Positions 6,787 to 36,790 of a DNA stretch of 39,578 nt are shown piece after piece (position 1 is the first letter of the stretch; every line of letters begins with the position of its first letter). The DNA is taken from positions 1-39,578 of the IMG/VR virus record IMGVR_UViG_3300025112_000055; one strand, written 5' to 3'. This DNA comes from a virus. The position numbers and the translations under genes are program-made. The notes beneath the pieces are model-generated. The model was not told the DNA's origin and searched no databases. It worked only from the letters and a program-made list of their open reading frames with translations.

Positions 6787-6808
6787 CATTATTATCGTTT
6801 AGCTAATC

Positions 6809-7735: not shown

Positions 7736-7772
7736 TTTAGTTTATTTTAGTTTATAGTTTATTATCTCGTTA

Positions 7773-7785: not shown

Positions 7786-7809
7786 GTATAATAACAATTT
7801 TGTTAATTC

Positions 7810-8820: not shown

Positions 8821-8854
8821 ATCTTTAATTATTATTTCTACGTTATTGTTAATT

Positions 8855-10195: not shown

Positions 10196-10263
10196 CTATG
10201 ATTCCAATTTTAATTAAAAAATGTATATAGTATACAACACACCTATGGGAATGGTTGTTAACA

Positions 10264-10758
10264 TTAATCCAATTCTTCTTCTGGTAGATTATGTCTATCT
10301 GTTGGGTCTTCCTCTTCTGGTTCTTCAGGTGGGTTAGGTAGGTCTACTATAGGCTCTTCTTCTGGTTTAATGAAGTTGAAGGTGATACCGTTACCTGTAA
10401 CATTCACCTCTTTCTTCTCAGTGTAATTACCAGCCATCTTGTTAAGCATATCCAATGACTTCAATAGGTGTTGCCTATCGGCATCATCCTTACATTGTTC
10501 GATTAGTTCCATCAAATCTTTAATGATGATACCTCTATTAATCTCGTATTGCTCATCAAGTTGCGCTCTATGCTTGGTCATCAACTCTTGGATGTAAGGC
10601 ACTCTCATAAGCTTATATGCAGCCTTAGACGCATATATAGGGTCTTCAACCTTGAAGGCTTTCATATACGCCTTATCCTGTCTGTTACCATTGGCTAGAT
10701 ATTCTTTTACGAATTCTCTATGTCTAGCTCTCTTTTCTTTCTTTGTTTTTCGTGGCAT
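10264..10758 (-). CDS. Terminase small subunit
   Basis: A 164-residue protein with a basic start (MPRKTKKEKRARHREFVKEYLANG). The helix-turn-helix pattern RQDKAYMKAFKVEDPIYASKAAYKLMRVPYIQELM is the classic small-terminase layout (FVxEYL...QAYxxAG...A...A..LL..P.V). It recognises packaging sites and loads the large subunit encoded next. The last 45 residues are rich in Pro and Glu, an acidic tail that may contact the large subunit. Confidence 0.85.
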   Translation of the reverse strand: MPRKTKKEKRARHREFVKEYLANGNRQDKAYMKAFKVEDPIYASKAAYKLMRVPYIQELMTKHRAQLDEQYEINRGIIIKDLMELIEQCKDDADRQHLLKSLDMLNKMAGNYTEKKEVNVTGNGITFNFIKPEEEPIVDLPNPPEEPEEEDPTDRHNLPEEELD

Positions 10759-18187: not shown

Positions 18188-18289
18188 ACGTTTATATACT
18201 TTCCTATCATAGACCTTACCAGATGGTTTAACCTTGGTTATCATCTTGCGTCTAATGATGGCTTTCTTATGTCTATCACTATTATCCAC
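18173..18289 (-). CDS. Small highly basic protein, 38 aa
   Basis: A GTG start at 18289 overlaps the tape-measure stop and gives 38 residues (MDNSDRHKKAIIRRKMITK, continuing to KREKRA) with 15 Lys/Arg. Its TAA lies in the centre of the terminator palindrome. It is the last gene of the tail operon. If the GTG is not used, an internal ATG at 18244 leaves 23 residues. It may bind nucleic acid; function unknown. Confidence 0.45.
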   Translation of the reverse strand: MDNSDRHKKAIIRRKMITKVKPSGKVYDRKVYKREKRA

Positions 18290-20195: not shown

Positions 20196-20208
20196 TGTTT
20201 ATTATTCT

Positions 20209-21882
20209 TTATTTAATCCACCAGTCATTACCACCAGTACTTATAAAAGTGGTTGATGATTGTGGGTCTATAGCTACTGATGTGGTTCCTTGAACACTAT
20301 CAGCCACCCCAACATCTACTGTACCAACGTTAGCAATATTATCTACTCTAACTACTGTAAGCACCCTACCAGGATTAGCATTGGCGCTTGGCAGCGTAGC
20401 CGTTACATTATTGGATGTACAATCCATAAATACTGTGTCGGCAGTAATTGTCATTGTATATGCTGACGTTGTTGCTGAAGCAATGTTATCAATTGTTGCT
20501 CTACGATTTGTTAAATCACCATCTGAGGTTAGTCTCATCGACTCGTGATTCCACGCACTATTATTATGTGAATCTGTAGGGTCTGTATACCATACAAAGT
20601 CTTTATCTCCATCGACTGCCAGCCACGTATCACCATAACCTTCATTATATATAACTACGGTATCTGGGAATACTACGTTATTAGTACTACCAAGTCCAAA
20701 TGCTACTCGCCTATTTGAATCATTGACCACGGTATAACCAGCAGCAGCAGTTGTTCCTGTGTTCTGATTAACTATTTGATGTCTCACAGTACCAGAAACG
20801 TTAGCAATAATGGTCAATGGGTCTAACTCCACTATCATAGAGCCTGTGGATCCATTTATTTTAACAGCGTGTCCAATTCTTTGTACGGCATCTATCCCCG
20901 TAGGGTGTATATCTGTCATAGTACCACCAGTACTTAGGTAAAGAATATCACCTGCTTTGAAGGCTGTGGTATCAAACCCCCCTAATAAACCAGTTGTGAT
21001 TATAGATATAGTCTGACCGTCAGATTTTGTTTCTGCGGCTACCGCCAATGTCTCACCTTTTGAAAAGTCTGTATTATCAGCTAAAGCTACTTGTGGAAAG
21101 TTACCTGTAACACCATTGACATAAACCACTTGTCCTACCGATATTCCAGCAGCTTCATTTACTTTAGCTGAAATAGTTATTGCTTCTGCGGTACCAACCG
21201 TTAGAGATGTTTGAGCAATGGCGTTAATTGTACCACCAGTACTTCTAACCAATATATCTTGGGTAGCATCACCAGCAGCAGGTGTACTATCTATATTAAG
21301 GTTAGCTACGTAAGCGGTATTATTAGATGTACCAGTGATACCAGTACCACCTAAGATAGCTGAAGCATTACCCGTTAATAGATTACCACTACCACTGATA
21401 AGCGCATTCTTTGAGTTAGACGTATTATTCTCACCAGTGATAAAACCATTATCAACGGTCGATACGTTATTCTCACCAACAACTAATGAAAGATCACCAC
21501 TTATCGAGTTAGTATAACCACCAACGATATTTCCATTACCACTTATCGAGTTAGTATAACCACCAATGATATTTCCATTACCACTTGAATCTGCTGGATT
21601 AGTACCGCTTAGAACGGCTGTATTAGCACCAGTACCTGCTGACCATAGGAAAGCTCCAGTGCTACCAGTTGAGGTGCTTAGAGGGACTTGGAAGATACCA
21701 TCATCTATCCTGATGAATAATTGGTCGTGACCTTCAAGCACACCGAACTCGGATAATGCTAGGTCATTCGAAGTCCAACCACTTGTGGTGAAATCTTCTG
21801 AAGGTGGTACCGTAAAGTTGGTTGCTCCGGTTGCAGTCAAAGTGTGATGACTGATTCGACTAAATTGTTTTATAATACTCAT
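20209..21882 (-). CDS. Tail fibre-like protein with YadA-type head repeats
   Basis: A 557-residue protein. Residues about 100-180 hold 14-residue repeats (NGNIIGGYTNSISG, NGNIVGGYTNSISG, then SLVVGENN, GFITGENN, ALISGSGN) of the left-handed beta-roll type seen in trimeric autotransporter heads. The middle has an Ig-like repeat region (GISVGQVVYVNGVTGNFPQV). The C-terminus VTATLPSANANPGRVLTVVRV followed by STTFISTGGNDWWIK is a fibre tip pattern. It is probably a trimeric fibre at the tail end. Its ATG is preceded by a copy of the recurrent motif at 21892-21904. No catalytic motif is seen. Confidence 0.7.
   Translation of the reverse strand: MSIIKQFSRISHHTLTATGATNFTVPPSEDFTTSGWTSNDLALSEFGVLEGHDQLFIRIDDGIFQVPLSTSTGSTGAFLWSAGTGANTAVLSGTNPADSSGNGNIIGGYTNSISGNGNIVGGYTNSISGDLSLVVGENNVSTVDNGFITGENNTSNSKNALISGSGNLLTGNASAILGGTGITGTSNNTAYVANLNIDSTPAAGDATQDILVRSTGGTINAIAQTSLTVGTAEAITISAKVNEAAGISVGQVVYVNGVTGNFPQVALADNTDFSKGETLAVAAETKSDGQTISIITTGLLGGFDTTAFKAGDILYLSTGGTMTDIHPTGIDAVQRIGHAVKINGSTGSMIVELDPLTIIANVSGTVRHQIVNQNTGTTAAAGYTVVNDSNRRVAFGLGSTNNVVFPDTVVIYNEGYGDTWLAVDGDKDFVWYTDPTDSHNNSAWNHESMRLTSDGDLTNRRATIDNIASATTSAYTMTITADTVFMDCTSNNVTATLPSANANPGRVLTVVRVDNIANVGTVDVGVADSVQGTTSVAIDPQSSTTFISTGGNDWWIK
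21496..21579 (-). repeat. 42-bp tandem repeat in the fibre gene
   Basis: Two 42-base units (21496-21537, 21538-21579) differing at one base near the end, plus a short third start at 21580. They encode the two GGYTNSISG units and keep the frame, so copy number could change without breaking the gene. Confidence 0.8.
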
Positions 21883-21891
21883 ATCTTAATT

Positions 21892-21904
21892 CTATATATA
21901 ATTA
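21892..21904 (-). promoter_or_regulatory. Recurrent upstream motif, one mismatch copy
   Basis: CTATATATAATTA on the plus strand, one base different from the copies at 1608 and 7773, and 10 bases before the fibre start at 21882. Confidence 0.2.
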
Positions 21905-21925
21905 CCTTATTTGATATTATGTTTC

Positions 21926-24682
21926 TTAGATGATTCTATCTCTGGCTCCATCTACGTTAGTTTCGATTGAATGTGTTCCTAATGGGCGCACTTCATCTCT
22001 ACCACCAGATATGAAATTAACTATCTTGTTATCTGGATATGGGTTAAGTGTGGTATCTCTACCAGCATCCACATAATTGGATATTTTCACCAATGGGTTA
22101 ATATAGGTTCTATTATTCTCATCGTAGTAACCACCATTTAAACCTAACACTGTGATGTTAGTTCCTCGTACTATATTATTGTCACCACTTACAAGCAGAC
22201 TCTTACCCTCAATGTTATTCTTATCACCTAAGAGTATAGATGATGTGGTCTTATTGAGTGTATTTGATTTACCGTAAGCGTGTGATTTAACAGTATCTTT
22301 ACTGTAGGTGTTATTAATTAAACGATTACTAGCCTCATTCAAAATACCATTAACAGCACTGGTATTATTATTAACAGTATTTATCTCATTGTTAGGGAAG
22401 AAGCTACCAATAGTTTTATCAGCAGTAATTAATTCCACTTTAGTTAAACCCTTATCATTCAAGTCGTAATCAATTATCTTATTGATATGCCACCAAGAAT
22501 CGTATACATAGATACGTTCGTTTAAATCTAAGTTGGTAACATCAAGATAAGATAGATTGAAATACCCAGTCATTATATGTCCGTTCTCAAAGATGTCCAT
22601 TTGAGTTCGGTAATGTTGATTGAATAAATTGTTATTAGTTAAATACTTATAGTTATGTGCATAGTAATCACAGATACCATAATTCAAATCGCATTCTGGT
22701 TCAATAGGGTTAGGATAGAAGTGTCCAGCATATCTATAATCATTTTGGTGCTGATGAAATACCTGGTCAAATACTGGTACGAATTCTTCATATGCCCAAT
22801 AATGGGATAGAACATCACCTAGATATAATATTCTAATGTTATTTTTAGGGTGACGAGCATTTATATAAGGAACATAGTTACCATTGTTACTAAGAATAAA
22901 GGTAGGTGAAAATATAGGTTCCACCTTATCAGTACCTTTGATGAATTCATTTTCGAAAATATATTCTAATTGACCGAAAGTTTCGTTAGTAGTTTCAGTA
23001 TATAGTTTATTTAAGACATCATCATCATCTGATGAATACGTGAATTGTTTTATCTTATTCTGTTTATTGGACATCAACTCAACATCAACTTTCGTTATAT
23101 CTAACTTATCTGTCCAGTCCAATTCACCACCATCTGCGTAAAATTGGTCTCTGGTTTTGATAATCATATTGGTGGGGTTGTATTCGTCCTCAACAATATA
23201 AAGGTTGAACATCTTGATTATGCTAAGAATGAAATCAGATTGTTTCACTTTCTTAGGGATAGCAAGATTCATAGCAATAGGTGAACCTTCAATAACATCG
23301 TTATCGGTTTGATTAGTAAAGTGTGCGGTATCATCATTCTGTGCTGATACTTTAATGGTTATCTGACCATCAAACCAACCATCAGGGTTACCATTAATAT
23401 CGGCATTAAAGAATCCTCTCCAATCTTGGAAGACACCATCGATAATAAGTATAGGGTCTATTGTTGTAATTACCTCTATAGTAGAAGCACCAACCATAGC
23501 ATCCAAGTCGATTACACCATTTAACTCTCCTGAGTAACTACCTAAATAGTTTTCAGTATTACTTGAGTATGCTGGGTCACTGTCAGTGAAGGTGTGTTCA
23601 AATAAATCTTCATCAATATCTAGCAATACCATAACGGTACCGAAACTATTTCTTACAGCTAGAAAATGTTTAACAGAGATACCGAAATTAATCCCACCCA
23701 AACCAGTTTTAATGTTGGTTGAAGTTGAAGCACCGAATAACTCTAAGGTAACATCAGCATCATACTTAGCATAAAATTCTACAACACCACCAAGATTGGT
23801 TAGGTCAAATTGACCAGTACCTATATCATACCTACTATCATTATCATACCAACCCTGACTTAACGAATCATCATTATCATAAAGTAATGTCTCGTAATAC
23901 TGAATTGGTGTTACCATTTGCCCATTATTTTCTGGTAAATAAAGGTCTGTATAATAATTGGTAACATCGTGACCAGCCCTAAAAGCCACTAAACTATCAA
24001 CACTAGATTTAATAGCATCACCATTGAATGGTATAATAAGCTTATCGAATTTAAGGTCATATAATTCATCCCACTCATAGGTATATCCAACATCTGAGAA
24101 TATCTTATCCCAATACACTTTAGTATATGTGGCTGGTCTGAAATCTCGTACAGTGTAATTAGAATATTGGTCATCGTTATAAGCTAAGAAATAAGCGTAC
24201 CCATCAGTGGTAGTACCACTTGCCATTGATGCGATAATAGTTTCTGCTCTAATGGTATGGTCATACTCACTTAAATCTACATCAGTTAAATACTTACCAG
24301 ATATCTCATTATAAAATGATGATACTTCTGATTTGATATAGCAATCATACTCAACCTTGAAGTCCTCAGAATTCTTGAATACTTTATTGATTTTACGTAT
24401 TTGGAAGGTACCCTCAAAGGTGGTGAAACCATCAACGATGATTCTAACCTTTTCTTTTATTATAGGGTCGAATGTTAGTGTGTTAACATTAACATTAAAG
24501 ATGTTCCCTAAGATATCATTATTATTATTAGTACCAGGAAGCTTGATGGTCTTTGACCACGCACCACCCCTATTGGCGATATTCCTAATATCGTTTAAGT
24601 TGAAGTTAAGTGCCAATGGAATGTCTTTGGACATATCCAATAAACCGTAATCTACTAATTCTAATTTTACGTTACTACTCAT
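21926..24682 (-). CDS. Large tail (baseplate hub-like) protein
   Basis: A 918-residue protein beginning KLELVDYGLLDMSKDIPLAL followed by RGGAWSKTIKLPGTNNN. I recognise this opening in a family of large minor tail proteins of Bacteroidota siphophages. Its place between the 571-aa tail protein and the fibre suggests the central baseplate or tail hub. The last 170 residues change character: SILLGDKNNIEGKSLLVSGDNNIVRG is a trimeric beta-roll repeat like that in the neighbouring fibre, so it may bind or continue that fibre. No enzyme motif is visible. Confidence 0.7.
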   Translation of the reverse strand: MSSNVKLELVDYGLLDMSKDIPLALNFNLNDIRNIANRGGAWSKTIKLPGTNNNNDILGNIFNVNVNTLTFDPIIKEKVRIIVDGFTTFEGTFQIRKINKVFKNSEDFKVEYDCYIKSEVSSFYNEISGKYLTDVDLSEYDHTIRAETIIASMASGTTTDGYAYFLAYNDDQYSNYTVRDFRPATYTKVYWDKIFSDVGYTYEWDELYDLKFDKLIIPFNGDAIKSSVDSLVAFRAGHDVTNYYTDLYLPENNGQMVTPIQYYETLLYDNDDSLSQGWYDNDSRYDIGTGQFDLTNLGGVVEFYAKYDADVTLELFGASTSTNIKTGLGGINFGISVKHFLAVRNSFGTVMVLLDIDEDLFEHTFTDSDPAYSSNTENYLGSYSGELNGVIDLDAMVGASTIEVITTIDPILIIDGVFQDWRGFFNADINGNPDGWFDGQITIKVSAQNDDTAHFTNQTDNDVIEGSPIAMNLAIPKKVKQSDFILSIIKMFNLYIVEDEYNPTNMIIKTRDQFYADGGELDWTDKLDITKVDVELMSNKQNKIKQFTYSSDDDDVLNKLYTETTNETFGQLEYIFENEFIKGTDKVEPIFSPTFILSNNGNYVPYINARHPKNNIRILYLGDVLSHYWAYEEFVPVFDQVFHQHQNDYRYAGHFYPNPIEPECDLNYGICDYYAHNYKYLTNNNLFNQHYRTQMDIFENGHIMTGYFNLSYLDVTNLDLNERIYVYDSWWHINKIIDYDLNDKGLTKVELITADKTIGSFFPNNEINTVNNNTSAVNGILNEASNRLINNTYSKDTVKSHAYGKSNTLNKTTSSILLGDKNNIEGKSLLVSGDNNIVRGTNITVLGLNGGYYDENNRTYINPLVKISNYVDAGRDTTLNPYPDNKIVNFISGGRDEVRPLGTHSIETNVDGARDRII

Positions 24683-24685
24683 ATC

Positions 24686-26401
24686 TTATCCTGATTGGGA
24701 TGTGTTATCGTTAGCGAATCTCACATCAAGTTTGTATCTGATGTTCTTTTCGTTTATCTTTCTTAGTCTTTCATATCGTCTGTCTGTTACGTAGACAGCG
24801 TGATACACATCATTAATTAATATTGAAGCCTCATTTGTTGTTATAAGTTCTTCGAAGAACGCAGCCTCAGCCTCAGTCAACCAATCAGTATTAAGAGTCC
24901 AAGTCTCAGTGAAGTCAATATTGAAGATACTATTACTACGCTCATTAAGACTGTAAGTGTATTCACCACTATCTAACCCACCAATGAACTTCTTATACGT
25001 ATCTCTCTTACTCACATTAACCTTCTGTTTATTATTAAGACTGAAGTTGAATGGTACATAACTACCGAATTTATCCTTGAATAGGATTGGGTAGTTGGTG
25101 AACTTATTGATACAAGAACAATCAACATTGAATGCTCTATAATCTGATTGCTCAACAGCAAAAGCAGTTATAATATTAATGGTATAGTTATCCACATCAC
25201 AATCAATCATTTGAGTGGTACCAGTACTACCTGATACTACACTGAATATTGCCTGATTTAAACCACGAGGTCCTACACTTACATTCTGGAATTCATCCTG
25301 AGCAGTATATAGGTTAGGATTTAAGACCTCATACTGTCCAATTAAGGAAGATGCCGCATCATAAGTTCTCACCACCATCTTATACATACCAAGTGATATC
25401 TTATTACCCCAGATATCCAAGAACACATCGTTATCCAACGTGACGTTCCAACCGTCTGGGAGCGTTGTTAAGAACTTTTGTCCTGTACCTGAAGGGTTGT
25501 AGTCATTCCAATCCCAATTAACCCAATCAGCGTGTCGTATGGCACCATTGAATACGTGATTATCACTTATGGCTAACCCAGTAGTTTGAGTTAGTCTACC
25601 ATCGTTGTATTCCGTATAGCCAGTATGGGTTGGTGAATTATCAATCCAAGGTTGGTTGATGTCAACGTAATAGTTACCACCAACGGCACCAGCACCAACG
25701 ACAATCTGTAATCCATCATAAGGTTTATTTCTTACCAATGTACCACTTTCATTACCTATGGTATCTCCTTGATATTGGATGGCTAAGATTACGAAATCAG
25801 CATACACAAATTCAACATCCCAAGTACCATTATATTGTGCGAAGGTATATTGTGAATCTTGTTCAACCGTTATACTATCACCTATCACTATGCTGTGTCC
25901 GACAGAATGGAATGCTGCCCTACCAGTAGTGGCAGAAGCGATGTAGTCATATTCGAAGTCTTCAGCAGCGTTAACTACGTTTATGGCATCACCAGCAACG
26001 TAACCAGAATCTGTAGTACCAGTTAGTCTAACCATTCCACTATTGAATATGGTATCACCAAACTCCCATTGAGCGTAATATTCCTCACCAACATTAATTC
26101 GATATTCATATCCAACACTTGGTGCGTTGGTGAACCCTGTTACTGCTGTGTTGAAATCTATATCCTCAGAGAAACAACCTAAGTCGTTATTTATTATCTT
26201 GGATATGTTAACCTCTAATAAATCATCACCATATCTAGGCTTAATCTTTAAGTCAGCCAAAGTAGTTGATGTGCTTTGATTAGAAACACTCACCAAATAT
26301 CTGAAGTTAGATTGGTTTACGTTAGTACTTGAACCATAAAAATACATTGGGTTGTAACCTGCGGTTAACTCTTGTGGTGACCCTGATAGTGTAATAGCCA
26401 T
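24686..26401 (-). CDS. Minor tail protein, distal tail-like
   Basis: A 571-residue beta-rich protein (MAITLSGSPQELTAGYNPMYF... VNISKIINNDLGCFSEDI). Its C-terminal region is FSLNNKQKVNVSKRDTYKKF, then FTETWTLNTDWLTEAEAAFFEELITTNEA. The pattern is that of Bacteroidota siphophage minor tail proteins encoded before the hub protein; a role joining tube to baseplate is inferred from position. It precedes the hub gene by 3 bases, so they are translated together. No catalytic motif. Confidence 0.65.
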   Translation of the reverse strand: MAITLSGSPQELTAGYNPMYFYGSSTNVNQSNFRYLVSVSNQSTSTTLADLKIKPRYGDDLLEVNISKIINNDLGCFSEDIDFNTAVTGFTNAPSVGYEYRINVGEEYYAQWEFGDTIFNSGMVRLTGTTDSGYVAGDAINVVNAAEDFEYDYIASATTGRAAFHSVGHSIVIGDSITVEQDSQYTFAQYNGTWDVEFVYADFVILAIQYQGDTIGNESGTLVRNKPYDGLQIVVGAGAVGGNYYVDINQPWIDNSPTHTGYTEYNDGRLTQTTGLAISDNHVFNGAIRHADWVNWDWNDYNPSGTGQKFLTTLPDGWNVTLDNDVFLDIWGNKISLGMYKMVVRTYDAASSLIGQYEVLNPNLYTAQDEFQNVSVGPRGLNQAIFSVVSGSTGTTQMIDCDVDNYTINIITAFAVEQSDYRAFNVDCSCINKFTNYPILFKDKFGSYVPFNFSLNNKQKVNVSKRDTYKKFIGGLDSGEYTYSLNERSNSIFNIDFTETWTLNTDWLTEAEAAFFEELITTNEASILINDVYHAVYVTDRRYERLRKINEKNIRYKLDVRFANDNTSQSG

Positions 26402-26415: not shown

Positions 26416-26709
26416 TTAAATCGTTTCGAGTTGTATCTCAATTATGTTTGTCATAGCATCTTCAATGGCTTTATTCCATTGAGGTGATTTTAATACGTCT
26501 TCTGTTATCTTATATTCTTCGTCCAGATACTCATAATAATCCTCAGCCTCAATATTGAAAGATATCTTGTTATGCTGAATCTTAGTCTTCACATTGATAC
26601 TCTTAAGTAAACTACCAGTATCAACCAGACCTTTCTTCTTGATACCCTTCTTAATTAATTCCGTTAGAATAGTATCAAGCTTCTGTATTTCAACATTAGT
26701 AGTTGCCAT
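26416..26709 (-). CDS. HK97 gp10-like tail completion protein
   Basis: A 97-residue protein with the short gp10 signature: helix LDTILTELIKKGIKKKGLVDTGSLLKSINV, strands NKISFNIEAEDYYEYLDEEY, then a C-terminal helix. VDTGxLxxSI is the hallmark of the family. gp10-like proteins sit at the head-tail joint near the tail terminator. The tail terminator-like gene would be two genes upstream if 28318 continues at base 1. It shares its start base with the upstream gene's stop codon (26709). Confidence 0.7.
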   Translation of the reverse strand: MATTNVEIQKLDTILTELIKKGIKKKGLVDTGSLLKSINVKTKIQHNKISFNIEAEDYYEYLDEEYKITEDVLKSPQWNKAIEDAMTNIIEIQLETI

Positions 26710-27113
26710 TATACTATAACTAAAGGTTCGAATAAATCTATTATCTGGTCTTTAATGCTTGGATTTCCAGAAGTCCATCCACCATCTGTGACGCTCTCAA
26801 CGAACAACAAAAAAGCGTTATCCCCATTTAAAATGAAGTTGGAAATATTTTCCTTGTGCTCATCAAATACTTCTGGTAAGAAGTTAGAATCTGGTGCTGA
26901 GTCATCTAAAATTAACATAGCGTTAATTGCGTCTATCCTCAATAACCAGTTAGGGTAATCATCTGTTGCTGGAGCTTCCTCAAGCCAAGTCCATCCATCC
27001 ACAGGATAGACGTGTTCACCAGAATTTGATGGTGTCAATTGGTATGATGTGTTAAGTACGGTTCGTCCGTACAACCATTCATCTCCGCTTTTTTTATAAT
27101 AACCTGCACTCAT
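26709..27113 (-). CDS. Hypothetical neck-region protein
   Basis: A 134-residue protein with many Trp and Tyr (GDEWLYGRTVL, DGWTWLEEAPATDDYPNWLLRIDAINAML). It lies between the adhesin gene and the gp10-like gene, so a role in the head-tail joint or tail terminator complex is likely from position. No family recognised. Confidence 0.6.
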   Translation of the reverse strand: MSAGYYKKSGDEWLYGRTVLNTSYQLTPSNSGEHVYPVDGWTWLEEAPATDDYPNWLLRIDAINAMLILDDSAPDSNFLPEVFDEHKENISNFILNGDNAFLLFVESVTDGGWTSGNPSIKDQIIDLFEPLVIV

Positions 27114-27124: not shown

Positions 27125-30100
27125 TTAAGTTATAACTGTCCACCCTTTTGCTGATGCAATAGTCCCATCAGCCGTTGCTGCACCAGGATTTCCAGTTACT
27201 GTTATTGTCTTCCCAGCCACTACTGGTAGGTCTGTATATATCTCTTCCAATTCAGCCTCTTCTAATTGGCAGTTGAGGAATGTGATTGTAATAGGTACAT
27301 CACAATTTCTCACTCTCGACAATCTTACTGCTGAAGCAAATATCGAACTAACATTAGTCACAGCCGACCAATCAGTTATATTTATTTCTTGTAAGGCTGA
27401 ACAGTTACGGAATGTGTCATTTAAGTTTGCATTAATTGTGGTAACCAATGCTGGAATAACTATTATAGAGTAACAATTAATGAACATTCTTCTAAGTGTT
27501 GTGGCACTGGATGTATCAAGTAATGGTACACGAACTAATGAGTGACAACCACTAAATGTAGAATCAAACGAAAGTACATTGGAAGTATCAAATAATGGAA
27601 CCTCCAACAATGAATAGCAGTTAATGAAGGCACTCGCAAATGATGTGAAATTCGATGTGTCAAATAAACCAATACTCTCTAATGAGTAACAACTTGGGAA
27701 TGCATCGAAGTTGGTAACACTTCCAGTATCAAATGCTGGTGCGTTTTGTAATGACATACACGAACTGAACATACTAGTCCAAGTAGTCAATAATGGGTAA
27801 TCTACGGGTTGGTATTCTTCCAACCCGTAACACGATTTACACATCTCACGAGTTGTGGTCACAAGAGCACCGCTTAATGTTGGTAATCGAGAAATAGAAT
27901 AACAATTAAGGAAAAACCGATAATATGATGTTGCAGATGATGTATCAAAATCCCGTAAATATGATAAGTTATGACAAGAGATAAACGCATTACTGAATAA
28001 AGTAACATTGGAACTATCAACAAAATCCACGGTCTCAAGACTATAATTGTAACCAAATATATTTGTAAAGTTGGTTGCAGCAGGTGTGTCTATTTTGAGG
28101 TATGTTAAAGACTGGCAATTATAATATGTAGTAGAAAAATTAGTTACATTACTTAAATCCATAGTCCCAATATTGGTCAATGAATAACAATCCCTAAAAC
28201 AATCAGTCATATTTGTAGCACTATTGGTAGCAAGATTAGGTACAGACCTCAATCCCGAACAATCCTCGAACATATCTAAGTATGTGGTAATATTAGAGGT
28301 ACCTAAGAAATCAAATTGCTCTAATTGCATAGGTACGAAGTTCGTATTTCTAATACGCATTGTGGTAAGATTCTCAGCTTGCATCTGAATATCCAACCAC
28401 CCTATACTGGTAATTGAGTCACCATTTGTATGTGCATTAGCCAAATCAAAATCAGTTAGATTTGAACCATCTTGTGGTGTGACCTTAATCAATACTTGTC
28501 TATACCCATCTGATGTAGTTGTGGCACTTGATGTAGCCGAATAAACAATATCTCTCTCAGCTATCACGCCCGTACCATAGTTGATGTCACCACCACCATC
28601 CCCCCAATTAACTGTGAAATCACCAGTACATTGAACCGTCACATAATTGTGTGACCTATCCCATACCGCAAACAAACCGTTAATTTCTTCTGTTGATGTA
28701 CCCCCAGTTATTGTAGGGAGAGTCAACCAATCACTTGGTCGTTCATATGCTGCTACACCAAGATGAACGTCTGCTGGGCTAACACTGTATGCTGTAGCAA
28801 CCCCAACATCTTTAACGGAACCAGATAAACACCAATCCCCATAAGCACCAACAGTCCAAGTATATGTGTCCCCAGTTTGGGAGAAGGTTTTATGGGTACC
28901 ATCACCCTGTGGGATATCAAAGTTGTAATACTCGATTCCTGTGGCACCTGTTGTCAAAATCTTAGCATATACAGTCTCACCAAAAGTAGTTGCAGTAATA
29001 GCTGACGTTGTACCTGAATCTGAATACATTTGGACATCAACACTTAATGTTGGTGTTACTGGTGTGCAGGTAATCAGATTACCATACTCTGTTGTTCCAG
29101 TAACCCCATTCGAATCAATCCAAGTAATATCATCAATGGTATAACCTGTGGATACTGAAGGTGTTGTATCTGTGAAGCCAGATGCACTACTAAATATAGA
29201 AGTATCAGGTAATACCAATGTGCTATCAACTGGAGCGTTAGCTGTATATGCGCTCGTAGAGTTGGTAACGGTACCACCTGTGCTACAGGTTGTTGCTGTG
29301 AAACCTACCATTGCTGGTGTTACAACTGGTGAGCTGTCACCATCGTAATTGGTCACATTTGGTAATACGAACGTACTACCAGCAGGTGTTGTGGCTGAAT
29401 ATGTTGAACCAGAATTCGCAATGGTAACTGGGTCACAGGTTGTTGCTGTGAAACCTACCATTGCTGGTGTTACAACTGGTGAGCTGTCACTATCATAGTT
29501 GATTATATTTGGTAAAGTGAACCCACTCTCAGCAGGTACATTCTGTGTATAAGTATTACCAGAATTGGTTATCGTTGACGCTGACACGAACCATGAGACA
29601 CCACTGGCAGCACCAACGGGGTCGAATCCGTTAACAGTGTCAATATTTACGTCTACAACTGATGGGGTAACATATAATGGTAGACTATTAACAGATACGT
29701 TAATATTAGGTAATTGAAGTGTCCCACCTGCCGCCACGGTTCCAGAATATGTTACACCAGAGTTTATTACTGTACCAGACAGGCAGAATGGTGTAGCACT
29801 AAATGATGTTTGTGCTGGTAATATAACCGTAGAACCATCACAATCGTAATGTGTGATATTAGGTAATGTATAACCACTTGTTGCTGGGACGGATACACTG
29901 AATGTAGCACCAGAGTTTATTATATCTGAATTACCAACCACATAAGTACTATTACAGTCAGTCGTTGTAATTAAGTCGTCAGCGCTATCTCTAATAATTA
30001 CAGACCCTTGAGTCCTAATAACTGGTGTTCTCTTATTTTGGTTTGGTAGTGGTTCTGCTGTCTCTGGGTCTATAGCAATCTCATTCAAAACCATCATTCT

Positions 30101-30808
30101 ATTAATGGTTGGATTAACTTCAAAATCCTTCTCATCCAAAATATAACCAGCCAATAACATCTCGTAAGCCTCTACATAAAAACGTCTAGCTTCAAAATCC
30201 TCGATATTACTCTCATCCGTAATAGTTGGTAGAGTGATTGGCATTGGGTGTTGCTTTGGATAGATATATGCTTGTGTTGCATTGAATGCTTTATGAACCT
30301 TCTTATGCATCACGTTAACATCAGACATCTTATTACTGAAGAATCTAACTTCATAGGTAATATCTACGGCTGTTGGTTGTGGGATCTTGTAAATGTCCAC
30401 ACCCAATCTGGAACCATCATTAGATGGGACTTTGTAGTAAGAATAGTTACGTTGTCCTGGTATATTAGCTAACGCTGCTTGGTTAGTTCCCTTCTGAATA
30501 TCTGGGTTTCTAACGATAGTAACGAATGGCATTTTGATGTTTTTATATTCATCAGTAAATTTCCATGTTTTTTTGAAATCGGCATATCTTTGAATAGTTA
30601 GGAAAACAACAGGTACTTCCTCTCCATCAATCTCGATTCGCAAGTCCTTACTTACGTAATCAACGAAAGATGTGTCCATATCCTTTATGTGGACACCTTG
30701 TGGTAGGAACCCATTTCTATCAGCGATATTGTCTAATAGTTCTTCCCTACGTTGTGTACCCACAATCTGTGGAACTAACTTTAACTGTTTTCTAAACCCT
30801 TTTGGCAT
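27125..30808 (-). CDS. Large adhesin: gp15-like N-domain, Ig-like repeats, BspA-type LRR
   Basis: As read, a 1227-residue protein. Residues 1 to about 265 form a virion domain (KMPFVTIVRNPDIQKG, IPQPTAVDITYEVRFFSNKM, FEARRFYVEAYEMLLAGYI) that I associate with tail-completion proteins of T4-like and larger phages. Then come five or so Ig-like repeats with NYDxDSSPVVTPAMVGFTATTC, and a WGDGGGD domain. From about 815 to 1180 there are 23-24-residue leucine-rich repeats of BspA/DUF285 type (for example LFDTSNVLSFDSTFSGCHSL). A cap ends GKTITVTGNPGAATADG. This is a cell-surface-binding protein. The LRR part (27125-28318) may really belong to the gene cut at base 1. Confidence 0.75.
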   Translation of the reverse strand: MPKGFRKQLKLVPQIVGTQRREELLDNIADRNGFLPQGVHIKDMDTSFVDYVSKDLRIEIDGEEVPVVFLTIQRYADFKKTWKFTDEYKNIKMPFVTIVRNPDIQKGTNQAALANIPGQRNYSYYKVPSNDGSRLGVDIYKIPQPTAVDITYEVRFFSNKMSDVNVMHKKVHKAFNATQAYIYPKQHPMPITLPTITDESNIEDFEARRFYVEAYEMLLAGYILDEKDFEVNPTINRMMVLNEIAIDPETAEPLPNQNKRTPVIRTQGSVIIRDSADDLITTTDCNSTYVVGNSDIINSGATFSVSVPATSGYTLPNITHYDCDGSTVILPAQTSFSATPFCLSGTVINSGVTYSGTVAAGGTLQLPNINVSVNSLPLYVTPSVVDVNIDTVNGFDPVGAASGVSWFVSASTITNSGNTYTQNVPAESGFTLPNIINYDSDSSPVVTPAMVGFTATTCDPVTIANSGSTYSATTPAGSTFVLPNVTNYDGDSSPVVTPAMVGFTATTCSTGGTVTNSTSAYTANAPVDSTLVLPDTSIFSSASGFTDTTPSVSTGYTIDDITWIDSNGVTGTTEYGNLITCTPVTPTLSVDVQMYSDSGTTSAITATTFGETVYAKILTTGATGIEYYNFDIPQGDGTHKTFSQTGDTYTWTVGAYGDWCLSGSVKDVGVATAYSVSPADVHLGVAAYERPSDWLTLPTITGGTSTEEINGLFAVWDRSHNYVTVQCTGDFTVNWGDGGGDINYGTGVIAERDIVYSATSSATTTSDGYRQVLIKVTPQDGSNLTDFDLANAHTNGDSITSIGWLDIQMQAENLTTMRIRNTNFVPMQLEQFDFLGTSNITTYLDMFEDCSGLRSVPNLATNSATNMTDCFRDCYSLTNIGTMDLSNVTNFSTTYYNCQSLTYLKIDTPAATNFTNIFGYNYSLETVDFVDSSNVTLFSNAFISCHNLSYLRDFDTSSATSYYRFFLNCYSISRLPTLSGALVTTTREMCKSCYGLEEYQPVDYPLLTTWTSMFSSCMSLQNAPAFDTGSVTNFDAFPSCYSLESIGLFDTSNFTSFASAFINCYSLLEVPLFDTSNVLSFDSTFSGCHSLVRVPLLDTSSATTLRRMFINCYSIIVIPALVTTINANLNDTFRNCSALQEINITDWSAVTNVSSIFASAVRLSRVRNCDVPITITFLNCQLEEAELEEIYTDLPVVAGKTITVTGNPGAATADGTIASAKGWTVIT
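28319..29405 (-). repeat. Adhesin module homologous to window positions 1 to about 1090
   Basis: The first 117 bases (28319-28435) are identical to 1-117 and the reading frame is the same. Similarity then stays high with scattered substitutions and a few small indels, and fades near 29405 and 1090, where the Ig-like repeats diverge. Both copies run on the minus strand. Confidence 0.95.
29285..29490 (-). repeat. Exact 56-bp direct repeats, 150 bp apart
   Basis: The 56 bases at 29285-29340 recur exactly at 29435-29490. The 150-base period equals 50 codons and corresponds to the NYDxDSSPVVTPAMVGFTATTC unit. The shorter copy-1 gene has a similar unit near 960-1040, so unit number differs between the two adhesins. 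Confidence 0.85.
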
Positions 30809-31326
30809 TATTCAGATGTAAATTCATTTTCATCAACTGGAGCGCAAGTAACCTTTTTATATGCACCTTTGTATCCTAATATTGTGTGTTGGTTATCATA
30901 ATTTTTGATACCATCGTTTGCAATGCTGAAGAATCTAACTTCAGTATCACTCACTTGATAACCAATGTAATCACCAACGGTCAATTCAACTTCAAGTTCA
31001 TCTAAATGGGCTTGGTATAATATAAATACTAAGTTACCATCCTGTAAGTCACGTAAATTTGCTGGATTGAAGGTCGTGTTTTCAGCCTCATCCACAATTG
31101 GTATGATATTCAGTTCAACTGGAACCTTATATACAACCTCACCCTTTCGAGCTTCGTTATAAATATCGGTTGTAGTCATTTCATTGTCTACCCGATATAG
31201 AATAGCCTTGAAATTACCATCACCCTCATGAACTTCACGACCCATTCTGATGTCTAATTGGTAATCTTCTTCCGAAAAGAACTTGCTAACTCTATTTATT
31301 GGTACTATTTTATTTAGTTTAGCCAT
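30808..31326 (-). CDS. Virion structural protein, possibly neck
   Basis: A 172-residue protein (VELTVGDYIGYQVSDTEVRFFSIANDGIKNYDN, ending CAPVDENEFTSE). Its stop shares one base with the start of the large adhesin gene, so the two are coupled. In T4-like phages the genes for neck proteins gp13, gp14 and tail-completion gp15 lie together. With gp13-like and gp15-like products encoded nearby, this is a candidate for the gp14 role, but that is inference from position. Confidence 0.55.
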   Translation of the reverse strand: MAKLNKIVPINRVSKFFSEEDYQLDIRMGREVHEGDGNFKAILYRVDNEMTTTDIYNEARKGEVVYKVPVELNIIPIVDEAENTTFNPANLRDLQDGNLVFILYQAHLDELEVELTVGDYIGYQVSDTEVRFFSIANDGIKNYDNQHTILGYKGAYKKVTCAPVDENEFTSE

Positions 31327-31373
31327 AATACTTTTTAGGTAAATATCTTGAGGTTAGGTAAATTCTAAAAACA

Positions 31374-31405
31374 CTTGATTATTAATATAAAAAGGTGTAT
31401 ATTTA
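31374..31405 (+). promoter_or_regulatory. Promoter of the helicase gene
   Basis: CTTG (31374-31377), 20 bases, TATATTTA (31398-31405). The ATG at 31413 follows after only 7 bases, where transcription should begin, so the message is probably leaderless. Context AAACACTTGA is shared with the 14636 promoter. Confidence 0.65.
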
Positions 31406-31412
31406 ACTCAGT

Positions 31413-34349
31413 ATGATTGACTTAGGAGATATTAAAGGAAGGAATGCTTTAATTCGATTGAACCTTTATGAGGGGCGTAACCCGTACCTGACAAAGCTTA
31501 AAGACGAATATAAGCGTAAGGGTAAATTAGCATTGTCTAATACCCAAGAAGCCTACATTCTAGATAATTACGATAGAGAACCTATCAAAATTAATAGAGT
31601 TGTAAGTATATCCGAGTATATCGGAAAAGAGTTTCAAGAGAAACATGACCTCAAATTTACACCAGAACGTATGTATATTGGGTTCGTATTGGCTCAAACA
31701 GAGAAATCATTTCACGTATACGGTAAGTTGAGTCAGAAGCAAAAGGGTAATCGAATCTACTGGTTACCTAAGACTCAGGTAATGGAAGATTTATTCTACG
31801 TACCTGTGGATATTGATGTGGATTTCGATAAGTATCTTGAACTGGATACCAAATCTAGAACACCATTCAACCACCAAGAAAGTGGTATTAAATTCTTATT
31901 GAGTAGAGATGGTGGTATCCTTGCTGATGATATGGGGCTTGGGAAATGTATAAGTACCTCAGAATCAGTGTATTGCCCCACTGGTAAAGTTAAAATGGGT
32001 GATTTAGAAGTTGGTGATTATGTTATAGGTTCTAACGGTAAGAAAACCAAAGTAACTGCGGTTTACCCACAACCTAAAAAGGAGTTATTTAAGATAACGT
32101 TTAATGACGGTTACTCTACTACTTGTTGTAAAGAACATATGTGGACTGTAACGTCTAATAATGGTAGTGTAAATAATAAAAATAGACCAGTTAAGTATTC
32201 AAATCTAACCATTGAACAAATGTTAGATAAGGATTTAGAGTTAGAACAAAAAGGTATTGGTCACAATAAAAATAAGGTTTATAAATTTAAAACTTTTTAT
32301 AAACAATCGAATGGTCAAAACAAATGGCAGATACCAATAGTACAACCAATAGAATTTGAACGCTATGATGTATTACCAATAAACCCTTATCTATTAGGTG
32401 TGAGTTTGGGTGATGGTCATATTAAGAAAAATGGCACTATCGCTATCGAATTGGGTGATTATGATTTTGATGAGATATTCAAAAATCAAGTATTAAATGA
32501 AATTAAAGGTGGGGTAAATAAAAGAAGGAATCAAATTAATACGTTAAGAGAAGAAATTATTAGACTTAATTTGAATGGTACCCTTTCTCACACTAAATTC
32601 ATTCCAGACATATATAAATACTCATCCGTTGATGATAGAATTGCGATTCTTCAGGGGCTTATGGATACTGATGGTTATTGTGCTAAGTCTAATAAAGGTG
32701 TATTTGTTAGTACGGAATATTGTACAGTATCTAAGCAACTTGCTAATGATATTGCTGAGATTGTTCACAGTCTTGGTGGTATAGTTAGGAAGAAATCTAA
32801 GATTGGTTCGTATAAGAAACCTGACGGTACTAAAGTCTTATGTAAGAAAGCCTACAGGCTTAATATTAAATTCTCAAATGATATAAACCCATTTAGACTT
32901 AAGAGAAAAGCTAAAGAATATAATCCACCACAAAAATATAAGGTGGGTAGATACATTAAAAATATAGAATCTATTGGTGATGGTGATAGTGTCTGCATTA
33001 AAGTTGATGCGGCTGATGAATTATTTACATTAAATCATGGTATTGTAACCCATAACACCTACCAATCCATTATTGCCGCTTTGGAAGTGGGTGCTGAAAA
33101 GGTATTGATTGTCTGTCCAGCATCAACCAAGATTAACTGGAAGAGGGAGATTGAGATGTTCGGTGAGACTGATATTGCAATCATCAATAGTTACCAATGG
33201 CAGTCTGCTAAGTGGACAATTATTAACTATGATATCCTGAAGAACTTCCATACAATCACACCAAAGAAGAAAGCTGATAGAGATGCTATCGAATTCTGGG
33301 ATAGAGATATCTGGGATGAGAAGTTTGATATCATGATTGTGGATGAAGCCCACAAGGTTAAAGACCCTAAAAGTAATAGGGGTGCCATTGTTGGAGAACT
33401 ATCTAAGAACCCAGCAACAAAGCGTACATGGCTCTTAACAGGAACTCCTGTAGCCAACAGACCTAAAGACTTCTATAACCTCTTAAAAATCATTAAAAGC
33501 CCTCTGGCAGATAATTATCCATTCTTCATGAAGAGATACTGTGATGCTAAGACCATATACAAAAGGTTAGCTAGCGGTGGCACCAGAAAGATTCTAGTAG
33601 CAAACGGACAATCCAATTTGGATGAGCTATCCATCAAGTCACGAAACTACGTTATGCGTAGATTAAAGACTGAAGTATTGGATATGCCTGATAAGATTGT
33701 TACACCTACTCACCATGCTCTGACTGAAAGTCAATTGAGTGAGTATGAATACCTGTGGGAAGAATACTTGGAAGAAAGAAAAGCTAAGAAGAAAAAGGGT
33801 ACACCTGATAAGGACTTGGTGGAGATTATCCTATTGAGGAAATTCATTGCTCAATCTGCGATACCAAAAACAATTGAAATGGTTGAGGATGCTATTGAAG
33901 AGAACCAAAAGGTTGTTATCTTCACAACATTCAATGAGGAACAAAATGAACTGGCTGAATACTTCGGTAGTAAGTGTGTTAGACATAATGGTTCCATGAG
34001 TGATGCTGAGAAACAAAAGTCTGTGGATAAGTTCCAGAAGAATAAAGGAACTAAGATATTCATTGGTAATATCATATCTGCGGGTGTGGGTATTACATTG
34101 ACTGAAGGTACCGTTGTTGTGTTCAATTCATTTGACTGGGTACCAGGAAATAATGAACAAGCTGAAGATAGATGTTACAGGATTGGACAGGAGAATACGG
34201 TTAACGTTTACTACCAGTTATTCGAAGATACTATCACCACTAGAATGTGGTATACAGTACAGAGAAAACGAGATGTAATTGACCAGATTATCGGAACCAA
34301 AGATAGTGGTATGACCGATATGGTAGACTATGTGGTTGAAGAGGATTAA
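31413..34349 (+). CDS. SNF2-family helicase interrupted by an intein
   Basis: 978 residues as translated, 608 after splicing. The N-terminal part (1-150) precedes the motor. Motor motifs are Walker A DDMGLGK-[intein]-T (172-178, then 549), DEAH box MIVDEAHK (641-648), motif III LLTGTP (674-679) and motif VI QAEDRCYRIGQ. This order is that of SNF2/SMARCAL1-like DNA translocases, which act in fork repair, annealing or recombination; phage versions belong to replication modules. The final FDWVPGNNEQAEDR fits. The mRNA is probably leaderless (promoter at 31374). Its TAA overlaps the stop of the convergent terminase-like gene as TTAA (34346-34349). Confidence 0.9.
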   Translation: MIDLGDIKGRNALIRLNLYEGRNPYLTKLKDEYKRKGKLALSNTQEAYILDNYDREPIKINRVVSISEYIGKEFQEKHDLKFTPERMYIGFVLAQTEKSFHVYGKLSQKQKGNRIYWLPKTQVMEDLFYVPVDIDVDFDKYLELDTKSRTPFNHQESGIKFLLSRDGGILADDMGLGKCISTSESVYCPTGKVKMGDLEVGDYVIGSNGKKTKVTAVYPQPKKELFKITFNDGYSTTCCKEHMWTVTSNNGSVNNKNRPVKYSNLTIEQMLDKDLELEQKGIGHNKNKVYKFKTFYKQSNGQNKWQIPIVQPIEFERYDVLPINPYLLGVSLGDGHIKKNGTIAIELGDYDFDEIFKNQVLNEIKGGVNKRRNQINTLREEIIRLNLNGTLSHTKFIPDIYKYSSVDDRIAILQGLMDTDGYCAKSNKGVFVSTEYCTVSKQLANDIAEIVHSLGGIVRKKSKIGSYKKPDGTKVLCKKAYRLNIKFSNDINPFRLKRKAKEYNPPQKYKVGRYIKNIESIGDGDSVCIKVDAADELFTLNHGIVTHNTYQSIIAALEVGAEKVLIVCPASTKINWKREIEMFGETDIAIINSYQWQSAKWTIINYDILKNFHTITPKKKADRDAIEFWDRDIWDEKFDIMIVDEAHKVKDPKSNRGAIVGELSKNPATKRTWLLTGTPVANRPKDFYNLLKIIKSPLADNYPFFMKRYCDAKTIYKRLASGGTRKILVANGQSNLDELSIKSRNYVMRRLKTEVLDMPDKIVTPTHHALTESQLSEYEYLWEEYLEERKAKKKKGTPDKDLVEIILLRKFIAQSAIPKTIEMVEDAIEENQKVVIFTTFNEEQNELAEYFGSKCVRHNGSMSDAEKQKSVDKFQKNKGTKIFIGNIISAGVGITLTEGTVVVFNSFDWVPGNNEQAEDRCYRIGQENTVNVYYQLFEDTITTRMWYTVQRKRDVIDQIIGTKDSGMTDMVDYVVEED
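31947..33056 (+). other. Intein with LAGLIDADG homing endonuclease
   Basis: 370 residues, from C179 (CISTSESVYCPTGKVKMGDL) to N548 (LNHGIVTHN), followed by extein T549. The start Cys, the VxMGDLxVGDYVIG block A, TxxH-type block B (TTCCKEHMW) and the C-terminal His-Asn are all present, so splicing should work. Two dodecapeptide motifs, YLLGVSLGDGHI (326-337) and ILQGLMDTDGYC (412-423), with acidic residues kept, indicate an active homing endonuclease. It sits in the Walker A loop between Lys and Thr, a favoured intein site because it is hard to lose. Confidence 0.92.
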
Positions 34350-35236
34350 CCTAAATCCATTTCCAGTAACAGTCTTAGGTAATCTGATTGAGACATATCC
34401 AATTCCAAAAGACGCTTATTTAATTTATCAAAAACGTTATTGGGGATTCGTGCTTGAACTAACCTATCTTTCCTTTTTAGTTTCATGTATGTTACAGCAT
34501 TTATGAATTCCGCATATATTTCTTGTCTGAACATATTATCATTATTCATCAACCGTTTCATATCCTTTAACCAGTTTTCATCACGTGATGTTACGTCACT
34601 CCACTTAATGTTGAATATCGCAAACGCATTTTCACCCTTAATTGCTGCACTATGAAGGTCAAAAAACATATTCATACCATTTGGTGTGGACGCTATTATC
34701 ATTCTAGAATCTTCACCTGATGATATCATAGGAACCAAAGCACTAAAGAGGCTTTGTAGGTTCGGTATGTGAGCAGCTTCATCAATTATAAGGTCGTCCA
34801 CCATAATACCTTTTATCGCTCTTTCAGTGTAAGCCCTCACCATGAATTTATTACCATTAACCATATTAATCCTATCAGTCCACTCATCATCAACAATATC
34901 CTGATACCTATAACCTATGGTGTCACATGAATGTCGCAATATATCTTTAACCTTACGCAAAAATGATTTGGCTAAAACCATCTTAGTTGTTGTGTAAAGT
35001 AACACTCTTGAACCCTGATAGCCAGTACCAGTACCATATAATAATTGCCAGACCACATAGGTGGCTAACATAGTACTAACGTAGGTCTGTCTAGGCTTCT
35101 TAACCAATGAAAATTTATTCTCATTGATGTGGTTGAAGAACTTATATTGAAACGGGTCTAAAGTTAACTCAGATAGCTCACCCTTTTTTATGTCGTACCC
35201 GTAAGAACAGTTATTGATAAAATCATTTAATTCCAT
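34346..35236 (-). CDS. T4-type terminase ATPase with ribbon-helix-helix tail, no nuclease
   Basis: A 296-residue protein. It has the adenine-binding Q-motif LDPFQYKFF (26-34) and a deviant Walker A KKPRQTYVST (46-55), aligned with the RQLGKTT of T4 gp17, so the usual Gly-Lys is Tyr-Val. Walker B LIIDEAAHI (149-157), coupling motif IASTPNG (181-187) and the ATPase end MFRQEIYAEF follow. The gp17 nuclease domain should come next. Instead there is RLVQARIPNNVFDKLNKRL followed by MSQSDYLRLLLEM (258-293), a ribbon-helix-helix pattern. It may be a split or repurposed packaging ATPase. A nuclease partner may lie outside the window. Confidence 0.75.
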   Translation of the reverse strand: MELNDFINNCSYGYDIKKGELSELTLDPFQYKFFNHINENKFSLVKKPRQTYVSTMLATYVVWQLLYGTGTGYQGSRVLLYTTTKMVLAKSFLRKVKDILRHSCDTIGYRYQDIVDDEWTDRINMVNGNKFMVRAYTERAIKGIMVDDLIIDEAAHIPNLQSLFSALVPMISSGEDSRMIIASTPNGMNMFFDLHSAAIKGENAFAIFNIKWSDVTSRDENWLKDMKRLMNNDNMFRQEIYAEFINAVTYMKLKRKDRLVQARIPNNVFDKLNKRLLELDMSQSDYLRLLLEMDLG

Positions 35237-35295
35237 TTGTATTACAATTTAAAACTTTTGTCATACAAATAAATATAGAGCTATTGGGTGAAAGT

Positions 35296-35327
35296 ATTGA
35301 CTAGTGAAATCTTTTCCAGTATATTTA
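35296..35327 (+). promoter_or_regulatory. Promoter of the glutaredoxin gene
   Basis: ATTG (35296-35299), 20 bases, TATATTTA (35320-35327), 5 bases before the ATG at 35333. It overlaps the earlier in-frame ATG at 35288, which therefore cannot be the start. Confidence 0.6.
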
Positions 35328-35332
35328 TTGAT

Positions 35333-35596
35333 ATGGTACGATTATATACAATGAAGAATTGCCCGTTCTGTGAAGAGATGAAAACTCGACTTACGGAAGG
35401 TGAGGTTGAGTTCACGGAAATCAAAATAGATGAAGATTTGAATAAACCTGAATTCAATCAGGTGAAGAACATCACAAATGTTGACAGTGTACCCATCCTT
35501 CTTGTAGGAAAACAGTTCTTAGTACCCGAACGCTCATTCCGAACTATCAGAGAGGGGTTCGATATTACGAAGAAATTATTAGACGGTAAGGTGTAA
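35333..35596 (+). CDS. Glutaredoxin
   Basis: 87 residues from the ATG at 35333 (MVRLYTMKNCPFCEEMKTRL). It carries the active-site CPFC (C10, C13) at the end of the first strand, and SVPILLVG with the cis-proline loop typical of the thioredoxin fold. It should reduce disulfides, most usefully for a phage or host ribonucleotide reductase, as with glutaredoxins of T4-like phages. The promoter at 35296-35327 decides this start over the ATG at 35288. It lies 42 bases before the neck protein gene. The message is likely leaderless. Confidence 0.88.
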   Translation: MVRLYTMKNCPFCEEMKTRLTEGEVEFTEIKIDEDLNKPEFNQVKNITNVDSVPILLVGKQFLVPERSFRTIREGFDITKKLLDGKV

Positions 35597-35638
35597 GGTT
35601 TCTTCTTTCGTTGATATTTATAGTTAAATACTAATACT

Positions 35639-36790
35639 ATGGCTATATCGACAGAAGATAAGGAAAGACTGTACAGGCAATTTAGACATTCAATGGGAGC
35701 ACCATTTAGAGATGTTGAATTACTTGACGAAACCCTGTGTACATTAGTTGAGATTGCTATCGAAAACTACGCACAGTACGTGCAAGAGTGGTTAATAGAA
35801 CACCAATGGCAATCATTACTTGGTGCCAACGTCACAACAACAGATATGGCATTCGCTATGTCGGTAAGGGAGTTGGATGCGGTAACCCAATACACGTATG
35901 CGTACTCAAAACAAGTGGGTCTGCAATCTAGAGGTCCTTGGGAGTTAAAGAAAGATTATGTTCAAATTGAGACTGGTCAACAGGTTTATCAAATACCTGC
36001 TGGTCGAGAAATCAATGAGGTATTGTGGATAACACCACCTACTACAGATATGGCTTTGTTTTCACACTATGCTGGACTTGATTATGGTTTCGGTGGTGGA
36101 TATGGACAGCTTGGTTCTGGTGGTGGAACTGGTGGCGCTGGCGGTGCAGGTGGAACTGGCGGATACTATATCGCACCAGCATACGACATCTTACTTACTG
36201 CATCAGATTTTAACCTGAAAAATAGAATTCTTAGAAGCGAATTAACCTATAAAGTGACGGCAGGACCTGAAGGAACTAGACTATTACATCTAATGTCAGT
36301 ACCTGGTTCTAGGCTTAGTTTTGGTCACGCAGGTGGTGCTGGTGCAGGTAGTTCTATTAATATGACTGGTTGTCAAGTTTGGTACCATTATTATGATACT
36401 ACTCCAGATAATGTCGACCAATGTAGATTGGATAACCCTGACATTATCAAAATGTCTAATGAGGTTCCATTATCTAAATTGGACTTCGCAAACTTTAACG
36501 AACCTACCAAGGTCTTAGTTAGAAAGTTATTCGTTGGTGAAGCTAAAAGAGCTTTAGGTAGAACCAGAGGTAAATTTGGTGGTATAGTGGGTCCTCCTGA
36601 AGCTGAACGTACTTTGGATTACGATACATTACTATCAGAAGGTAATGAGGAAATCAGATATGAAATGGAACGTCTGGATGAAAAGTTACAAGCGTTGTCA
36701 TCTACTGCTCAGTTAGAGCGTGTTGCAAATGAATCTGAATCACTTAATCGTCACTTGAAATTCCGACCATTAGGTTTCTGGGCATATTAA
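35639..36790 (+). CDS. T4 gp13-like neck protein
   Basis: A 383-residue protein. The N-terminal part DETLCTLVEIAIENYAQYVQEWLIEHQWQSL followed by YAYSKQVGLQSRGPWELKKD and IPAGREINEVLWITPP matches my memory of neck proteins (gp13 type) of T4-like and larger marine phages. A Gly-rich insert at about residues 149-176 is followed by LTASDFNLKNRIL and a conserved-looking FVGEAKRALGRTRGKFGG. It would join the portal vertex to the tail. The identification is from family memory. The stop overlaps the convergent polymerase stop as TTAA (36787-36790). Confidence 0.6.
   Translation: MAISTEDKERLYRQFRHSMGAPFRDVELLDETLCTLVEIAIENYAQYVQEWLIEHQWQSLLGANVTTTDMAFAMSVRELDAVTQYTYAYSKQVGLQSRGPWELKKDYVQIETGQQVYQIPAGREINEVLWITPPTTDMALFSHYAGLDYGFGGGYGQLGSGGGTGGAGGAGGTGGYYIAPAYDILLTASDFNLKNRILRSELTYKVTAGPEGTRLLHLMSVPGSRLSFGHAGGAGAGSSINMTGCQVWYHYYDTTPDNVDQCRLDNPDIIKMSNEVPLSKLDFANFNEPTKVLVRKLFVGEAKRALGRTRGKFGGIVGPPEAERTLDYDTLLSEGNEEIRYEMERLDEKLQALSSTAQLERVANESESLNRHLKFRPLGFWAY

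Follow-up and report, generated by a model that had tools for sequence, protein, structure and literature searches.

Nearly the same putative adhesin module on the predicted tail terminators of a siphophage and a T4-like myophage, met in a viral contig that is most likely chimeric

Background

The window analysed here is a virus record from IMG/VR, 39,578 bases long. It carries two genes with different N-terminal domains that continue into nearly the same module. How did one module come to stand behind two tail-completion domains, and do both genes belong to one phage? We propose that the module is an interchangeable adhesin cassette borne on the tail terminators of a marine siphophage of ~28 kb and of a T4-like myophage, that its distal part was recently exchanged, that the window is a chimera of the two phages and that the adhesin is displayed at the neck. 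To this account as a whole we give a probability of roughly three in four (0.77).

Two genes with one module

The two genes, 1593(-) and 30808(-), are called here the S gene and the M gene (Table 1). They align over 1,057 bp with 83% DNA identity, and at E=0 chance is ruled out as the source of the similarity. The more than one kilobase of strong DNA similarity and the 117-base identical block that had been claimed are both confirmed. The protein alignment, which includes the WGDGGGD segment, reaches residue 531 of the S gene and residue 830 of the M gene, and the linker in the shared module is made of ~50-residue repeats of the type NSGxTYSxTVxAGxxLxLPN. In the M gene, DUF285 scores 65.5 bits against a curated Pfam cutoff of 25 (E=5e-18). 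The leucine-rich part is absent from the visible S copy because the contig start truncates the gene; 531 aa are present, the gene is open at contig base 1, and the contig end falls just before the leucine-rich part.

The original prediction gave both genes a common Ig-like, WGDGGGD and leucine-rich module. Its WGDGGGD part is found in both genes and its leucine-rich part is seen only in the M gene, whereas the Ig-like label is unproven, because Pfam (E<0.1) gave no Ig family for either gene.

Table 1. Positions in the window of the features discussed in the text
Feature	Position	Strand	Remarks
S gene	1..1593	-	terminator domain, ~50-aa repeats, WGDG domain; open at window base 1
S gene terminator domain	1147-1593	-	residues 1-149; Foldseek
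Identical block	1..117 = 28319-28435	-	DNA comparison; contig begins within shared module
Small and large terminase, protease, capsid, portal, adaptor, endolysin	2961..10758	-	most ordered as in G001
Tail genes of 571, 918, 557 and 637 aa (last = tape measure protein)	18282..26401	-	three with homologues, same order in G001
HK97-gp10-like gene	26416..26709	-	E=0.006, below cutoff; 3' of module as in L015, L017
Partner gene, siphophage version	26709..27113	-	134 aa; M version in L003 77.6% identical
M gene (T4-like)	27125..30808	-	1227 aa; terminator, ~50-aa repeats, WGDG domain and BspA-type leucine-rich repeats
M gene WGDG domain and BspA-type leucine-rich repeats	27128-28744	-	DUF285 E=5e-18
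Junction zone	27166..28435	.	T4-like sequence above, siphophage below
M gene terminator domain	30032-30808	-	Foldseek, T4 gp15
T4-like block	30808..39578	.	172-aa gene, SNF2/UvsW-type helicase, partial terminase-like ORF, Ad2-like neck gene, B-family DNA polymerase

Siphophage and T4-like sides of the window

As judged from sequence, the window is siphophage from base 1 to ~27.2 kb and T4-like myophage from ~28.4 to 39.6 kb, so that the S gene and the M gene very probably belong to two different phages. On the siphophage side, a contig holding siphophage sequence only (L025) is 99.9% identical to the window over 230-6146. The two ends of a further relative, G001 (contig of L027; 29,246 bp), share a 146-bp overlap that contains a single mismatch, and we read it for this reason as a circle of ~29.1 kb. 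Its recognisable homologues come in the order TerL, protease, capsid, portal, adaptor, two small genes, terminator, 571-aa homologue, 918-aa homologue and tape measure. In the window the terminator gene stands at the far left, and the 571-aa gene lies at 26.4 kb; these two become adjacent only if the module connects base 1 with ~28.3 kb, and the circle so closed measures ~28.4 kb. In the more distant siphophages L015 and L017 the leucine-rich, partner and gp10-like genes are adjacent, 3' of a terminator. The capsid of the siphophage side has matches in Nonlabens phages at 26% identity.

Two further features were seen on this side. A 45-nt inverted repeat (84% complementary; 14545-14589 and 15543-15587, 953 nt apart) lies around the start of the gene at 14997. 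The 557-aa tail-region gene (20209-21882) has a weak beta-roll (ice-binding-like) match and contains a 42-bp tandem duplication at 21493-21576.

On the T4-like side, window positions 34898 down to 27366 (7.5 kb) recur without a difference in contig L003, which shows 4 mismatches at 27356-27365 and diverges permanently below 27167. Beyond this divergence it runs into its own variant of the partner gene and then into a T4-type sheath gene. Complete sheath and tube genes are visible in L004 and L005, and PHROGs assigns the proteins of L004 to tail sheath and tail tube. The relatives L031-L040 (L032-L040 being contigs of 7-187 kb) have most of the polymerase, Ad2-like neck, helicase, 172-aa and terminator genes in the order of window 30-39.6 kb. 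Sheath and tube homologues lie 3' of the terminator in L032, L036 and L037, and beyond the cassette in L003 and L004. In L032 the terminator is a bare 254-aa protein followed directly by the sheath, with no cassette, and L034-L037 have other ORFs at the cassette site.

The helicase of this side (31413-34349) has an apparent LAGLIDADG intein at residues ~180-548, which is absent in L032, L034 and L037, where the matches split at residues ~178-190 and 549. The neighbouring 296-aa ORF (34346-35236) matches a T4-type terminase in its N-terminal part only (Terminase_6N), its C-terminal tail being unmatched. Because its presence among relatives is patchy (present in L003, L032 and L033, missing at the same site in L031 and L034-L040), it is perhaps a mobile or remnant gene.

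Predicted tail terminators as anchors

Tail terminators cap the tail as a ring at its head-proximal end. We compared AlphaFold models of both N-terminal domains, built from six-sequence alignments, with solved structures by Foldseek; the models are weak, with a mean pLDDT of 69 (S) and 56 (M) and TM-scores of 0.35-0.57. The S domain matched mostly tail terminators and neck proteins (T5 p142, the E217 neck, lambda gpU, T1) with E 5e-3 and a probability of up to 0.99. The M domain matched P1, T4 gp15 (E=8e-6, probability 1.00, TM 0.35-0.44) and T5 p142, and its neighbourhood also fits gp15, with sheath and tube genes downstream in the relatives that extend far enough. The assignments to a siphophage tail terminator for the S gene and to a T4-type tail-completion protein for the M gene are thus supported, and the models favour a tail terminator fold for both domains.

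The two domains had also been called unrelated, and this part falls at the level of fold, since the models of both match tail terminators; the same-fold outcome removes the claim of unrelated anchors and leaves transfer between morphotypes intact. The common fold is taken from Foldseek, because a profile comparison of the two terminator alignments gave no signal. The support is for a common fold and does not extend to common descent, since the sequence profiles show no relation between the two domains. By sequence, the S domain had no convincing match in the PDB and the T4-like terminator had no match among isolates, and a search of 84,980 bacterial and archaeal genomes with the siphophage terminator found no relative. 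Terminators are described as a family largely conserved in siphophages and myophages despite absent sequence homologies (PMC11784142). If the models are right, both phages would carry the adhesin on the same part of the virion, the terminator ring at the head end of the tail.

The putative leucine-rich adhesin, its partner gene and a second cassette

In other phages the leucine-rich gene mostly stands alone and starts shortly before a W-x-R-P-x-x-W motif, and in several of them T4-type sheath genes follow. LRR_5 was found in half of the eight aligned members among its relatives, and the solved structures related to the leucine-rich domain include leucine-rich cell surface proteins. Isolate matches reach only 25-35%, some of them annotated as tail protein (Synechococcus and Klebsiella phages). 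The partner protein has a conserved N-terminal part of ~50 aa ending in YPVDGWTW and no match in Pfam or PHROG. A scan with it gave 22 loci, which include some near-duplicate contigs, and the leucine-rich gene lies directly upstream in all 19 that have upstream sequence. From the domain type and the gene linkage we infer an adhesin with a small chaperone as its partner.

A second, different cassette also occurs at this locus in both lineages. In the siphophage L027/G001 a 295-aa gene follows the terminator gene, and in the T4-like L057 this cassette recurs, flanked by the T4-like kind of repeats on one side and by the sheath on the other. At the DNA level the two agree at 81% over 809 bp and at 94.6% over 223 bp, and the centre diverges. 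In L057 (800-1280) the centre of the cassette protein is strongly divergent and its flanks reach 96% identity. Such a divergent centre is the pattern expected of a recombining recognition tip.

Could the cassette be common to both phages and yet be no host adhesin, serving instead as a neck decoration with a structural or particle-binding role and no receptor specificity? Terminators are placed next to the head, far from the usual receptor-binding tip, and both neck structures with carbohydrate-binding domains (PMC6669499) and the neck fibres of cyanophage A-1(L) (PMC10966104) are known. However, the BspA-type leucine-rich repeats, the variable cassette centres between conserved ends and the linkage to a small partner gene all resemble fibre modules, and some related isolate matches are annotated as tail protein. 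We therefore consider mere decoration unlikely, although it is the alternative that deserves most weight, and we keep the host adhesin as the preferred reading.

A probably chimeric contig

The first base of the contig is also the first base of the identical block. This speaks for an assembly break of the kind left where two genomes share a stretch, and above 28435 the S copy departs from the M copy. We take the window most likely to be a chimeric assembly of the siphophage and the T4-like phage, joined at their common adhesin gene, because L003 leads from its identical 7.5 kb into a sheath gene instead, and because the gene order of G001 fits the window only if this is closed through the module. 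Mis-assembly would also explain why two terminase-type ORFs occur in one contig. The final ~40-240 bp of the M gene are then probably siphophage sequence, and the two phages would be nearly identical across the junction zone; for the leucine-rich part this near-identity is deduced from the assembly collapse. No siphophage contig crossing the leucine-rich part was found: the 43-bp block pattern matched only the T4-like L003 and L004, and the 97-aa and 571-aa siphophage proteins, used as queries, gave no match.

A single real recombinant genome, with siphophage and T4-like genes and two adhesin copies, would be the other way to read the window. The reading frame of the M gene is indeed unbroken across the junction, tetranucleotide composition fails to separate the two halves, which are alike, and the same kind of junction occurs in another contig, L029. 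Up to its base 4051 this contig matches the siphophage L027 at 99.6% identity, and from base 3836 it matches the T4-like L057 at 98.3%; its siphophage/T4-like junction (3836-4102) lies inside the second cassette. Nevertheless, the orientation of the join in L029 is opposite to that in the window, as expected of collapse at shared sequence, and L029 is probably a second chimera. A single genome would furthermore have to begin inside the identical block, to part from its close relative L003 just where this proceeds into the sheath gene, and to hold two terminase-type ORFs, whereas the siphophage portion alone already fits the gene order of a circular relative. We regard one genome as very improbable, and with the chimera as the preferred reading the suggestion of exchange within one genome is not supported. 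When the window was compared by megablast with 50,697 phage records, none matched.

Exchange between morphotypes

The siphophage L025 and the myophage L003 have the module in common without any reliance on the window, and on this sequence comparison the sharing between morphotypes is real and would stand if the window were set aside. The transfer of a module between phages of different morphotypes, as first proposed, is thus borne out by L025 and L003 and again by the second cassette in L027/G001 and L057.

Regarding the age of the exchange, dS values come from short bins and are rough: along most of the module they are ~0.27 in one bin and range elsewhere from ~0.4 to saturation, and they fall to ~0.05 at window 1-219, the last ~220 bp visible in the S copy. 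Because of this drop amid mosaic divergence, we consider the distal part recently exchanged. The claim of a recent transfer is therefore supported for part of the exchange. Uniform old homology was rejected, since the divergence is mosaic. That both copies come from an old common ancestor gene kept in the two lineages without recent transfer is hardly credible, for although the terminator folds resemble each other and synonymous sites in the upstream repeats are mostly at saturation, dS is very low near the leucine-rich part, no sequence similarity can be detected between the N-terminal domains, the second cassette agrees between lineages at 94.6% over 223 bp, and T4-like relatives lack the cassette or have other ORFs in its place.

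Proposed explanation and its meaning

According to the account that we prefer, the terminator of each phage would have a C-terminal extension running from short beta-type repeats through the WGDG domain to the BspA-type leucine-rich repeats, with the partner gene next to it. The homologous repeats and the cassette ends would permit recombination of the distal part between lineages, and the exchange near the leucine-rich part would be recent. Coming from the T4-like phage, the assembler may have run into the module and out of it again along the siphophage; near-identical copies there would have let it switch phages and would thus have made the window chimeric. In the virion, the terminator ring would hold six copies of the repeat-spaced adhesin at the neck, where they may bind the surface of the host or of a particle, before or beside the tail tip, and the partner protein may help to fold or cap the adhesin. 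The position of the ring is established for the terminator family. The shared sequence, the gene orders, the mosaic divergence and the second cassette are observed and the terminator folds are predicted, whereas neck display, surface binding, the role of the partner and the mis-assembly are what we infer. More generally, the terminators of siphophages and T4-like myophages could be a common docking site, at which unrelated phages of the same host trade whole neck-adhesin cassettes; we offer this tentatively, as somewhat short of an even chance.

If the explanation is true, adhesins are rapidly exchanged at the head end of the tail by phages that otherwise have almost nothing in common, and this end is a new place to seek determinants of host range. 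Furthermore, common cassettes generate chimeric viral contigs (the window and probably L029) that can be mistaken in databases for mosaic genomes, which is a tangible hazard.

Comparison with known systems

The exchange of a fibre and its chaperone across morphotypes has already been published: the schitovirus A5, the myovirus V22 and the siphovirus-type P24 of Alteromonas have a tail fibre and chaperone in common (PMC10579305). There, as here, marine phages of differing tail type share a receptor-binding protein and a small downstream partner. However, the Alteromonas module is a tail fibre, whereas the module described here is fused or adjacent to a predicted tail terminator at the head end, and its adhesin is of the BspA-type leucine-rich kind, the two being compared by description. 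A search of the open-access literature found no description of a terminator-borne adhesin, and the mounting on tail terminators appears to be new.

Regarding the anchors, the N-terminal domains are like lambda gpU, T5 p142 and T4 gp15 in predicted fold and gene neighbourhood (PMC11784142). Those proteins are short, whereas the extension here comes to ~970 residues in the M gene and to more than 380 visible residues in the S gene. Appendages at the neck, as proposed here, are known from the neck passage structure of 936 lactococcal phages, which has carbohydrate-binding modules (PMC6669499), from the neck fibres of cyanophage A-1(L) (PMC10966104) and from the whiskers of T4; all of these are separate collar or fibre proteins, whereas here the appendage would be an extension of the terminator itself. 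Finally, the BspA-type proteins (LRR_5, DUF285) have the same repeat domain, with DUF285 found in the window and LRR_5 in its relatives, but here, unlike in those proteins, the leucine-rich repeats follow a WGDG domain within a structural gene of a phage.
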